This document shows positions 119 through 2,751 of a DNA stretch of 5,780 nt, in pieces. Numbering within the stretch: position 1 is the first letter of the stretch; each line of letters begins with the position of its first letter. The notes under the pieces are model-generated. The model made no database searches. It saw nothing but the letters and a program-made list of their open reading frames with translations, and was not told where the DNA came from. The position numbers and the translations under genes are program-made. Source of the DNA: Clostridia bacterium (GTDB taxonomy: Bacteria > Bacillota_A > Clostridia > Oscillospirales > CAG-272); the NCBI GenBank assembly GCA_017414605.1, contig JAFQLG010000065.1, positions 1 through 5,780 on the forward strand. The letters run 5' to 3'.

Positions 119-239
119 GCCGATTCTTTATGAATCGGAACCCGTTCCCACCGCTTGCGGTGGGATTCGACGTGCGCTAAAAGAACATCAGTAAAGATAG
201 GTATCCGCGCACGTGAGGGTTCAGATTCTCGGATCATCC
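93..239. repeat. 147-bp tandem repeat, unit 1 (three-way-junction structure)
   Basis: This is the first of two head-to-tail copies. The first 52 bases (93-144) are identical to 240-291. The unit folds on itself. Outer stem P1 pairs GAATCGGAACCC (132-143) with GGGTTCAGATTC (217-228), 11 pairs plus one G.A mismatch. P2 is the perfect hairpin 146-165. P3 pairs ACGTGCGC (170-177) with GCGCACGT (207-214) and closes a 29-nt loop. The linkers are GT, TTCG and GA. A competing 7-bp hairpin (120-126 with 132-138) uses part of the same P1 strand. The end of the unit (217-234) resembles the T-arm of the upstream tRNA. There is no credible coding. I do not know a named family for it, and its active strand cannot be decided here. 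Confidence 0.85.
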
Positions 240-386
240 CAACAAAGTTGCTCCTTTTTGTTTTTGCCGATTCTTTATGAATCGGAACCCGCTCGCACGA
301 AGTGCGATTCGATTTGCGCCTCATAACCCTTTGATTACAATTGAATTTTGCGCAAATGAGGGTTCAGATTCCGGATGGGACACGCT
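240..386. repeat. 147-bp tandem repeat, unit 2 (same fold, changed stems)
   Basis: This second copy has the same architecture. P1 pairs 279-290 with 360-371 and is identical to unit 1. P2 is 293-298 with 302-307 (TCGCAC/GTGCGA). P3 is ATTTGCGC (312-319) with GCGCAAAT (350-357), around an unrelated 30-nt loop. The linkers are GC, TTCG and GA. Relative to unit 1, one P2 pair and two P3 pairs have changed on both sides so that pairing is kept. The copy starts inside what was the terminator loop in unit 1, so it lacks the rising arm (79-92) and cannot form that terminator. Its end (360-383) matches the tRNA 3' end closely. The right boundary is approximate, between about 383 and 389. Confidence 0.83.
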
Positions 387-389
387 CAC

Positions 390-440
390 AATCCCTCAGT
401 CTCGCATTCGCTCAACAGCTCCCTTTACACAAGGGAGCCT
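390..440. repeat. REP-like intergenic palindrome of a type seen in Clostridia
   Basis: The element begins AATCCCTCAG and ends in a perfect 8-bp hairpin, GCTCCCTT (418-425) with AAGGGAGC (431-438), around TACAC. I recall the pattern CCCTCAGTC-hairpin-GACAGCTCCCTT-AAGGGAGCC as a frequent intergenic repeat in gut Clostridia; that is memory, not a search. The central part (399-416), which in that pattern forms a second hairpin, pairs poorly here, so this copy looks degenerate. It follows repeat unit 2 within a few bases and encodes nothing. Confidence 0.7.
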
Positions 441-1256: not shown

Positions 1257-1844
1257 TTATTTTTCTTTATTTGTAAGCCTCAAAAACTCTTCACGGCCAA
1301 TAAGCACGTTGAGTGCCGCAAGGAGCGCATTGGCGGTCATTCCCTTGGGCAATCCAAGCCTTTCGGCAAGCGCATCGCGGCGCGCGGCACTGTCCTTGCC
1401 ACCCGAAAGTCCCGCCTCAAACATATCAAGCTTGGTTATCTCCTGACCTCTCGCCGCACACCCTCCGTCCGTTGAAAAGGGCTCAAGCAGGCGGCGCAGA
1501 ACGTCCGCGTCCGTGCCCTCAACACCAAGATAGCCCTCCTTTGAGGGTACCGCCTTGCGCCTTTCCTTGCCCGTGACTTGCGGAACGTAAAGCTGTATCA
1601 TTCTGTCCTTGGGTATTGTACCCGTTATGTGCGAACGAATGACCTTGCCCGCACCGTCAGAATCGGTCAACACGATTATTTGGCTCTTCTCTGCAAGACT
1701 GCGGATAAGCGCCAGGCGCTCATGGCTCTTGAATATTCCAAAGCCATCCGTTTGGATAACGGTTGCATCTGCAATAGAATCAATTTTTATCTTGTCGTAT
1801 TTACCCTCCACTATAATAGGGAGTGCGATCTTTAGCTTTTCCAT
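1257..1844 (-). CDS. rnmV: Ribonuclease M5 (5S rRNA maturation)
   Basis: RNase M5 cuts the 5S rRNA precursor on both sides in low-GC Gram-positives; this is known for the family. The 195-residue protein begins with a TOPRIM domain. IVEGKYDK (11-18) holds the catalytic Glu13, and LTDSDGAG (59-66) holds the metal-binding Asp61 and Asp63. The basic stretch after it (GKERRKAVPSKEGYLGVEG, 92-110) is characteristic of RNase M5. A C-terminal helical domain (about 125-195) probably recognises the RNA. Length is close to that of the Bacillus subtilis enzyme. A primase or topoisomerase is ruled out by the small size and the GVEG region. The ATG is supported by AAGGA at 1852-1856. The gene follows uppP by 10 bases and is probably co-transcribed; in many Firmicutes it sits instead beside ksgA or tatD, so this placement is less usual. 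Confidence 0.95.
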   Translation of the reverse strand: MEKLKIALPIIVEGKYDKIKIDSIADATVIQTDGFGIFKSHERLALIRSLAEKSQIIVLTDSDGAGKVIRSHITGTIPKDRMIQLYVPQVTGKERRKAVPSKEGYLGVEGTDADVLRRLLEPFSTDGGCAARGQEITKLDMFEAGLSGGKDSAARRDALAERLGLPKGMTANALLAALNVLIGREEFLRLTNKEK

Positions 1845-1851
1845 AGTTCAG

Positions 1852-1856
1852 TCCTT
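1852..1856 (-). promoter_or_regulatory. rnmV ribosome site overlapping the uppP stop codon
   Basis: On the minus strand AAGGA lies seven bases before the rnmV ATG, and its first two bases are also the last two of the uppP TAA stop (1855-1857). This arrangement fits translational coupling: ribosomes ending uppP would be placed on the rnmV start. Confidence 0.75.
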
Positions 1857-2751
1857 ATACCGCAAAAGCGAAAAACATAATGACAAGCGCGCCGAGAATT
1901 ATGCGGTACACGCCAAAGGGCGCAAAGCTGTGCTTTTTGACAAATTCCATCAAGAATTTGATGCACACCATGGAAACGGCAAATGCCACAACGCTTGCAA
2001 CCAAAAGCACTATCCAGGCAAGCGCGGGAACGTCCACGCCGCCCTCCGCAACGTAATCAAAAAATCCGTATCCCTTGAGAAGCGATGCTCCCACCATTGC
2101 GGGAATACCCATAAAGAATGAGAATTCCGCCGCCGCAGGTCGCGATATACCCAGCGTTCTTGCGCCAAGTATCGTTGAGCCCGAGCGCGAGGTTCCGGGG
2201 ATTATTGAAAGCGTTTGGAAACAGCCCACCGCAAGCGCCTGCGAATATGAAATATCGTCCACGCTGTCCACCTTTATAGGCTTGCTTGACTGCCACTTTT
2301 CAACCACTATGAACAAAACGCCATACACAATAAGAGTTATGGCAACGGTTATCCAATTGTATATCCAACCGTCAATGTCCTTTCCCGTTATCTTTTCAAG
2401 TATCTTGTCGCCAACTATGCCGATAAGTGCCGCGGGAACGCTTGCAATAACAACCTTTAACCAAAGTGTCCACGTGCTCTTTTTCTCTGCCGCACTCTTT
2501 GAGGGTGCAAAGGGATTGAGCTTGGAGAAAAACATTACCACAACGGCAAGTATCGCGCCAAGTTGAATTACCACCTCAAACATGCTCATATATTCCTCGG
2601 CAAAGACGGGACCCAGCTCGCCGCCCACGTTGAGCTTCAAGAATTCGTCCAGCAGAATAAGATGTCCCGTTGAACTGACGGGCAGCCACTCGGTTATTCC
2701 CTCGACTACGCCAAAGATTATAGCTTTGATAATTTCTATAAATTCTGTCAT
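1855..2751 (-). CDS. uppP: Undecaprenyl-diphosphatase (BacA/UppP family)
   Basis: The enzyme recycles the lipid carrier of peptidoglycan and other wall polymers by converting undecaprenyl diphosphate to the monophosphate at the membrane; overproduction gives bacitracin resistance in other bacteria. The 298-residue protein is hydrophobic throughout, with about eight membrane segments. The first family motif, EGITEWLPVSSTGH (17-30), includes Glu17, Glu21, Ser27 and His30. The second motif, PGTSRSGST (185-193), supplies Arg189, matching the catalytic Arg of the Escherichia coli enzyme. It is slightly longer than the usual 265-290; the extra length seems to lie in polar loops around 76-95 and 151-169. 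The ATG is preceded by AAGGAG (2757-2762) at five bases. It lies between the U32 gene and rnmV in one leftward set. Confidence 0.97.
   Translation of the reverse strand: MTEFIEIIKAIIFGVVEGITEWLPVSSTGHLILLDEFLKLNVGGELGPVFAEEYMSMFEVVIQLGAILAVVVMFFSKLNPFAPSKSAAEKKSTWTLWLKVVIASVPAALIGIVGDKILEKITGKDIDGWIYNWITVAITLIVYGVLFIVVEKWQSSKPIKVDSVDDISYSQALAVGCFQTLSIIPGTSRSGSTILGARTLGISRPAAAEFSFFMGIPAMVGASLLKGYGFFDYVAEGGVDVPALAWIVLLVASVVAFAVSMVCIKFLMEFVKKHSFAPFGVYRIILGALVIMFFAFAV

Follow-up and report, generated by a model that had tools for sequence, protein, structure and literature searches.

Known systems with a similar layout

The closest known counterpart of the units reported here is the RtT RNA of Escherichia coli, also called the tyrT repeats (Rfam RF00391). 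PMC4986893 describes RtT as an RNA that is released from tRNA transcripts and linked to the stringent response; the further literature cited comprises PMC3119063, on tRNA duplications by prophages, and PMC8144298. In E. coli K-12 the tyrV locus has, at +59, an antisense of the T-arm (a 20-nt match, score 14); hairpins come next, the tRNA end is copied in 19 of 19 bases at +159, and the fold contains a 10-bp closing helix. The RtT repeats and the clostridial units of the current report are both tandem and 3' of a tRNA gene, and both hold a T-arm antisense, hairpins and a sense copy of the tRNA 3' end that closes a helix. They differ in that RtT, as read here, has three branches, a sense copy that lacks the T-loop part and no long palindrome directly after CCA, whereas the clostridial class has the helices P2 and P3 with a conserved TGCGC and, unlike RtT, occurs behind a wide range of tRNA genes and tmRNA. 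The E. coli locus contains four copies according to the Rfam RtT model, which finds nothing at its gathering score in seven unit-bearing clostridial loci and nothing up to E = 1 in the window (the whole stretch of 5,780 nt that was analysed); our own model R2, run on the E. coli locus with filters off, reaches no more than 9.8 bits, and that over the tRNA end. The layout is common to RtT and the clostridial units, and we make no claim of common descent.

Integron attC sites consist of inverted arms with an unpaired extra base around variable terminal hairpins, and they form tandem arrays that grow at one fixed site. The clostridial units resemble them in their inverted arms, extra base, enclosed hairpins and tandem arrays but, unlike attC, are without genes; the attC core, GTTRRRY, is not matched by their tails, which read TTC[A/T][A/G]A in 83 of 102 copies, with C at a purine position. 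The ends of IS200/IS605 and REP-type elements are short non-coding hairpin units in which pairing between guide and cleavage site encloses a hairpin. The units described below are likewise short, non-coding and hairpin-bearing; they differ in their location behind the ends of tRNA or tmRNA genes and in that the presence of Y1 transposases does not track them. The 3' ends of tRNA and tmRNA genes are also classic integration targets. The literature searches that we ran turned up no account of these clostridial units.

Two units behind the tRNA-Glu gene of the window

The original prediction had placed tandem three-way-junction units at 120-371, 3' of a tRNA gene. The tandem arrangement was borne out, the two units forming an 88% direct repeat with a spacing of 147 nt (75 nt matched gap-free) behind tRNA-Glu(CTC), but the feature is larger than was drawn, with a palindrome (P0) to be added in front and partial copies of the tRNA 3' end that reach to ~239 and ~383:

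4-78, + strand: tRNA-Glu (anticodon CTC), the host gene (ARAGORN; Rfam tRNA)
52-66, + strand: T-arm of tRNA-Glu(CTC), CGGGTTCGATTCCCG; T-arm and tRNA 3' end are recopied in each unit
79-117, + strand: P0 palindrome, 18-bp stem and 3-nt loop, at offset 0 from CCA
132-143, + strand: unit 1, P1 5' arm, a T-arm antisense with one added base facing the extra T-loop base
146-165, + strand: unit 1, P2 hairpin, 8 bp (RNA fold and alignment)
167-216, + strand: unit 1, whole of P3; core 170-177/207-214, 8 bp, with conserved TGCGC/GCGCA; loop 178-206
167-168/215-216, + strand: unit 1, two possible pairs beneath P3, with a bulged G
217-239, + strand: unit 1, P1 3' arm (217-228) and tail; T-arm copy that has gained a single base (GGGTTC-A-GATTC), its 3' end degraded
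240-266, + strand: truncated second copy of the P0 palindrome between the units (direct repeat)
279-290, + strand: unit 2, P1 5' arm (RNA fold and alignment)
293-307, + strand: unit 2, P2 hairpin, 6 bp (RNA fold and alignment)
309-359, + strand: unit 2, P3; 312-319/350-357 plus two possible lower pairs; loop 320-349
360-383, + strand: unit 2, P1 3' arm (360-371) and tail, CGGATGGGACAC; repeats the 3' end of tRNA-Glu, a single base being added in the T-loop

P0 of the window reads as an intrinsic terminator, and the tRNA-Glu 3' end at 53-76 forms a direct repeat with the unit 2 tail at 360-383. RNA folds place P1, P2 and P3 of both units where they had been predicted. The fold of 120-239 has z = -4.7, with none of 200 shuffles equally stable, and that of 267-385 has z = -1.85, with 8 of 200 shuffles equally stable; the centroid fold of unit 2 pairs part of P1 differently. 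Changes on both sides of a pair are present in the sequence, as claimed, at 148/163 against 295/305 and at 171/213 and 172/212 against 313/356 and 314/355, and the P3 loops of the two units are indeed unlike each other. Two details of the earlier drawing need amendment. P1 was correctly positioned, but its sixth pair is a G.A mismatch in both window units (T-A in three of four other aligned copies); and the GA of the supposed linkers TTCG and GA can pair with the TC of TTCG, which gives the two extra pairs under P3 with the bulged G. Both of these pairs vary two-sidedly, and they are paired in only 58% of cells.

A 7-bp hairpin, CCGATTC/GAATCGG, is the same in both window units (120-126/132-138 and 267-273/279-285) and competes with P1 for the P1 5' arm.

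A family of covarying copies

A scan of genome contigs with a 15-base piece gave, among the matches listed, L230 (clostridial MAG, sheep rectum) and L220 (Oscillospiraceae MAG); the L230 genome carries a tandem pair of units behind tRNA-Glu(TTC). Among the loci screened in short exact-pattern scans of viral and genome contigs, only these two and, for its layout, L113 were useful. A covariance model (R1) was built from six copies, in which 95% of cells are paired and 7 pairs have changed on both sides, as much being reached by one of 500 shuffles. At E <= 0.01, R1 matched at least 21 of 146 family genomes, with up to 11 rows each, mostly behind tRNA genes, and an order-wide search matched at least 9 of 245 genomes; 26 candidates were scored per genome in the first search and 15 in the second, so that copies were missed in both.

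An alignment of 66 distinct rows, fitted to the structure, has 92.7% of its cells paired (70.6% when shuffled) and 401 two-sided cells (124 when shuffled), and in it 23 of 28 pairs, in all helices, change on both sides; pairing falls to 25-48% when the partners are slid by one to three columns. The original prediction had proposed a selected structured RNA or folded-DNA element and, as its test, a covariance-model search; that search was run and turned out positive, with further copies whose stems covary and remain paired, and the proposal is supported. A second model, R2, at E <= 0.05 returned 189 rows in 16 known-positive genomes (2 to 27 per genome), some of which are possibly the two strands of one unit. 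After removal of repeats of the same DNA and of opposite-strand overlaps, 126 of 146 matches, from 33 sources, were kept as non-redundant copies; for the analysis of tails and arrays the same removals left 91 of 114. Tandem arrays contain up to five units, and the tails of many units are truncated.

When the window and the seven clostridial loci were searched with 4227 Rfam models, the units were unmatched, and the only matches at gathering score were to tRNA (plus RtT in the E. coli control); below gathering score, SpF25_sRNA touches P0 at 34.2/48 bits. The earlier statement that no named family has this layout holds for the three-way junction but fails for the general plan, which the E. coli RtT repeats have as well. 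Viral contigs gave no match to a pattern with both arms, and blastn of window positions 120-385 gave nothing in phage or plasmid records. The pattern GCGCAANNNNGGTTCNGANTCC was present in viral contigs at six loci, none of which scored as a unit there (the best score, 11.9 bits, lay elsewhere); the loci L466, L471 and L469 look like phage coding DNA.

The distribution of the units is patchy. At E <= 0.001, three-way units were found in 11 of 38 genomes of the clostridial family, centre included, some with one weak match; a class-wide draw of 41 genomes, under stricter filters, gave units in the centre, G001, and in 0 of the 40 others; and at tRNA-His a three-way unit is present at 1 of 29 readable loci. 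Apart from E. coli, the genomes include metagenome assemblies, and presence or absence is bounded by their completeness and by the candidates scored per search. Judged by the UppP protein of the window, its closest relatives among 118 genomes are G002 (92% amino-acid identity) and G110 (81%). No clean pair of an empty and a filled version of one locus was obtained, the orthologous loci being distant or of another layout.

Position behind tRNA genes

A tRNA or tmRNA gene on the same strand lies at most 700 nt upstream of 102 of the 126 copies, the genes representing 27 anticodon types (14 amino acids) and tmRNA, and 72 first units start 44-57 nt past the gene. Directly behind the gene, P0 has a median stem of 18 bp (11-22) in 50 element-bearing genes and begins at offset 0 from CCA in 45 of them. 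Behind 28 tRNA-His genes of the family that lack the element, the palindrome has a median of 10.5 bp (5-20) and starts at offset 4; the difference in stem length is significant (Mann-Whitney p = 4e-10), with the controls representing one tRNA type, tRNA-His. A terminator-like palindrome also occurs between the units of some arrays, and at tRNA-Lys, His and Gln, each with a single unit, the distal tail leads into a different, ordinary terminator.

The 24 copies with no tRNA gene within 700 nt are heterogeneous. Seven are at most 300 nt from a contig end, two (L292) lie 1.1-1.2 kb from tRNA-Arg, four (L265, L254 and L270 twice) come after a recombinase frame and the tip of a tRNA, and three (L361, L329 and L297) follow an apparent tRNA that is missing its 5' part. 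The eight that are not accounted for include the copy at L306, which is probably a false match.

P1 as copy and antisense of the neighbouring tRNA

The original prediction missed the main point about the units: one strand of P1 copies the T-arm of the neighbouring tRNA, and the other is its antisense. The 3' strand, together with the bases that follow it, reproduces the T-arm and some of the acceptor end of the gene next to it. Over 76 copies the summed score of tails against their own tRNA is 1241, as opposed to 698 for permuted genes (sd 27; maximum of 10,000 permutations 830), and the own tRNA is best or tied among 41 tails in 53 of the 76; the tails are copies of the local tRNA and not of tRNAs in general. 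For the antisense 5' arm the corresponding sum over 102 copies is 827 against 675 (sd 15; maximum of 5,000 permutations 730), and only 27 of the 102 have their own tRNA as the best or joint best match, its mean rank being 7.6 of 59 tails. The 5' strand of P1 tracks the local tRNA less sharply than the 3' strand does.

The copied T-loop carries one extra base after TTC in 85 of 102 tails (46 A, 37 T, 1 G, 1 C); the other 17 fall outside this pattern, and none of the 102 reads as the native loop. The 5' arm is the better complement of the native T-arm in 40 copies and of its own 3' arm in 44, with 18 ties, so the extra base is often a bulge.

We also scanned 46 tRNA genes with no further tRNA behind them, of which nine entries (one locus twice) have units. 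These nine score 10-26 for the sense copy and 7-17 for the antisense, compared with 5-10 and 6-11 for the other 37; the short antisense arms of two three-way units (8 and 10) do not stand out.

Variants of the layout

The arrangement of gene, palindrome, antisense and sense copy also encloses other interiors. At the locus of G110 that is orthologous to the window the units have a single hairpin, and at that of G002, where no tRNA gene is called, the terminator persists together with a three-way unit and a short unit whose tRNA tail is full. At tRNA-His of both genomes the antisense arm spans nearly the whole tRNA 3' end, with a different T-loop core, and three hairpins precede the T-arm copy. 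In L113, from another clostridial MAG, two units lie behind tRNA-Phe (antisense score 18, sense 25), and the tail of the first has the native T-loop.

Several further loci deserve mention as observations in their own right. The tRNA-Glu(CTC) gene of the window and of G110 was not found at L351 4280-4620 (G002), where the terminator and units are still present. On the minus strand of L113, at ~840-1200, two tandem tRNA-Phe-like copies have ~110 nt in place of part of the anticodon arm. In G038, tRNA-Asn at L439 1508-1760 is followed by a palindrome, hairpins and a native 3'-end copy without the extra base, and tRNA-Lys at L429 has units of yet another layout; in G096 (L430 ~1760-2169, minus strand), tRNA-Lys is followed by tandem stretches that resemble 5S rRNA fragments.

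Possible movement of the interiors

Among 75 arrays, the nearest relative of the interior (P2-P3) lies in the same genome in 26, where 2.8 are expected (maximum 11 in 2,000 permutations), and behind the same anticodon in 12, where again 2.8 are expected (maximum 10 in permutations). The unit 1 interior of the window, for example, shares P2 and the P3 5' stem with the unit at tRNA-Lys of G110, and P1 and the loop differ. It seems that P2-P3 spreads between the tRNA genes of one genome, by transposition or conversion, with P1 fitting the local tRNA; gene conversion could account for the likeness of interiors within a genome.

Neither of two candidate trans factors follows the units. Y1 transposase domains (E <= 0.001) occur in 10 of the 16 genomes chosen that have units and in 12 of the 24 without, and reverse transcriptase in 3 and 6 of them, respectively. 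The unit-bearing genomes with no Y1 match are G106, G060, G110, G002, G031 and G035, the first of which has 27 unit matches. Both enzymes were rejected as the trans factor because their presence disagrees with that of the units. Half sites resembling dif were considered in P3 and dropped.

What the units might be

The evidence points to a little-known class of tRNA-anchored elements with the RtT layout that are probably spreading. The explanation that we rank first, at about even chances, is that they are non-coding elements, anchored at tRNA and tmRNA genes, that spread and amplify as DNA. Their order is gene, P0, T-arm antisense, branched interior (here P2 and P3) and a sense T-arm copy whose extra base sits between positions C56 and G57; the sense and antisense parts pair as P1, so that a single strand folds into a branched hairpin. 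We suggest that units arise in the T-loop, at the junction C56/G57, that the 3' half of the tRNA is duplicated in the process, and that the gene remains intact since this same half forms the start of the unit. The single-unit tails that lead into an ordinary terminator at tRNA-Lys, His and Gln look as if a stretch had been inserted at C56/G57; the inserted stretch would begin in the T-loop, take in the tRNA end and P0 and finish at GGTTCN. Further units might arise by recombination between the repeated tails, and the conserved P3 (TGCGC/GCGCA) might be the site of a putative enzyme. The interior would be the part that moves, with P1 remade from the target or re-fitted by selection.

Some observations speak against parts of this account. 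The search for an enzyme, which covered Y1 and reverse transcriptase, found none, and for 39 of the 75 arrays the closest interior comes from another genome and from behind another anticodon. The negative blastn search of phage and plasmid records and the lack of a clean empty site among the loci read count in the same direction. Cut-and-paste insertion alone leaves the antisense of the 5' arm to a new tRNA unaccounted for. Two related layouts have native T-loop tails, at the first unit of L113 and at the tRNA-Asn locus of L439. A more specific version, which we offer only tentatively, holds that the units are self-retargeting mobile elements free of genes, whose interior moves between tRNA and tmRNA genes while the ends are rebuilt as an altered T-arm copy and its antisense, the guide to the host gene being kept, and that RtT would be a long-known member of the class. 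If the ends are indeed rebuilt from the target, this would be an unusual way to find and keep a site.

The next candidate, distinctly less probable than spread as DNA, is a small RNA system of the kind proposed for RtT: read-through of P0 would release a structured RNA whose 5' arm pairs with the T-arm of the upstream tRNA or with a downstream copy, and which might act on tRNA processing, termination or amino-acid stress. The units are on the same strand as the gene and at a near-fixed distance behind it, their helices all change on both sides, and RtT itself is described as an RNA from tRNA transcripts. On the other hand, a strong terminator-like palindrome separates tRNA and unit, and sometimes the units from each other, the three-way unit is absent from 27 of the 38 family genomes, and many tails are truncated. 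The counts of G.U and A.C cells, used to tell RNA from DNA, cut both ways. In the P2 and P3 helices of the best 66 rows, the ratio of G.U to A.C is 13:1, which is RNA-like and counts against a DNA element, and in 122 rows it is 38:26, compared with 26:1 in tRNA stems. The share of G.U, by contrast, is depleted in the units (13 of 870 in the 66 rows, 38 of 1666 in the 122) relative to adjacent tRNA acceptor stems (26 of 391). These rows are related to each other and were chosen by score; taken as an RNA/DNA test, the comparison gives no verdict beyond a leaning to DNA through the low share of G.U.

That the units are scars or attachment sites of integrating islands, relics or partners of site-specific integration at the T-loop or 3' end of a tRNA, appears unlikely, although tRNA and tmRNA 3' ends are usual integration targets. 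Large serine recombinase islands were tried as the source of the units and kept as a rival only; counted from the recombinase side, a three-way unit lies just downstream at 4 of 21 recombinase loci (G106, G072, G001 and G074). In the first three of these genomes the recombinase frame runs into a tRNA tip, with no tRNA gene on the stretch examined. The other 17 loci are without a unit (a weak 18-bit match at L409 is not counted), 102 of the 126 copies have a tRNA or tmRNA gene just upstream, and a covarying interior with a conserved P3 is not expected of scars. As observed separately, large serine recombinase frames at L401 (912-12028), L402 and L403 run into a tRNA 3' tip before P0 and unit; by eye, the island at L401 further resembles a restriction system of type I that has two genes for specificity subunits.

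It is improbable that the units are by-products of replication, formed by a double template switch at the tRNA (sense-antisense-sense, an inverted triplication) and then by slippage, for while tRNA 3' end, P0 and 5' arm do make up a single long inverted repeat, which is almost complete at tRNA-His of G110 and G002, with the tail as third copy and with tandem arrays, independent events would not give a common P2-P3, P3 motif and extra base over 33 sources.

Of the explanations considered, spread as DNA thus remains the most likely, followed by an RtT-like RNA. The E. coli tyrT repeats have so far been an oddity; their layout is now found behind tRNA genes of 14 amino-acid classes and tmRNA, and one clostridial family supplies dozens of natural helix variants. 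Whether such repeats are RNA, parasite or scar can now be tested by comparison and in culture.

Other repeats in the window

Downstream of unit 2, window positions 386-436 form a palindromic stretch (..CAGCTCCCTTTACACAAGGGAGCC..) that resembles what we take to be an intergenic repeat of gut Clostridia; it had no match among the loci fetched for comparison. At 438-469, TTCGATTTGCGCC reproduces exactly the stretch 308-320 of unit 2, its junction and P3 strand, and GATTTGC/GCAAATC could pair; this segment is probably the remnant of a decayed third unit, with a local alignment score of only 14.
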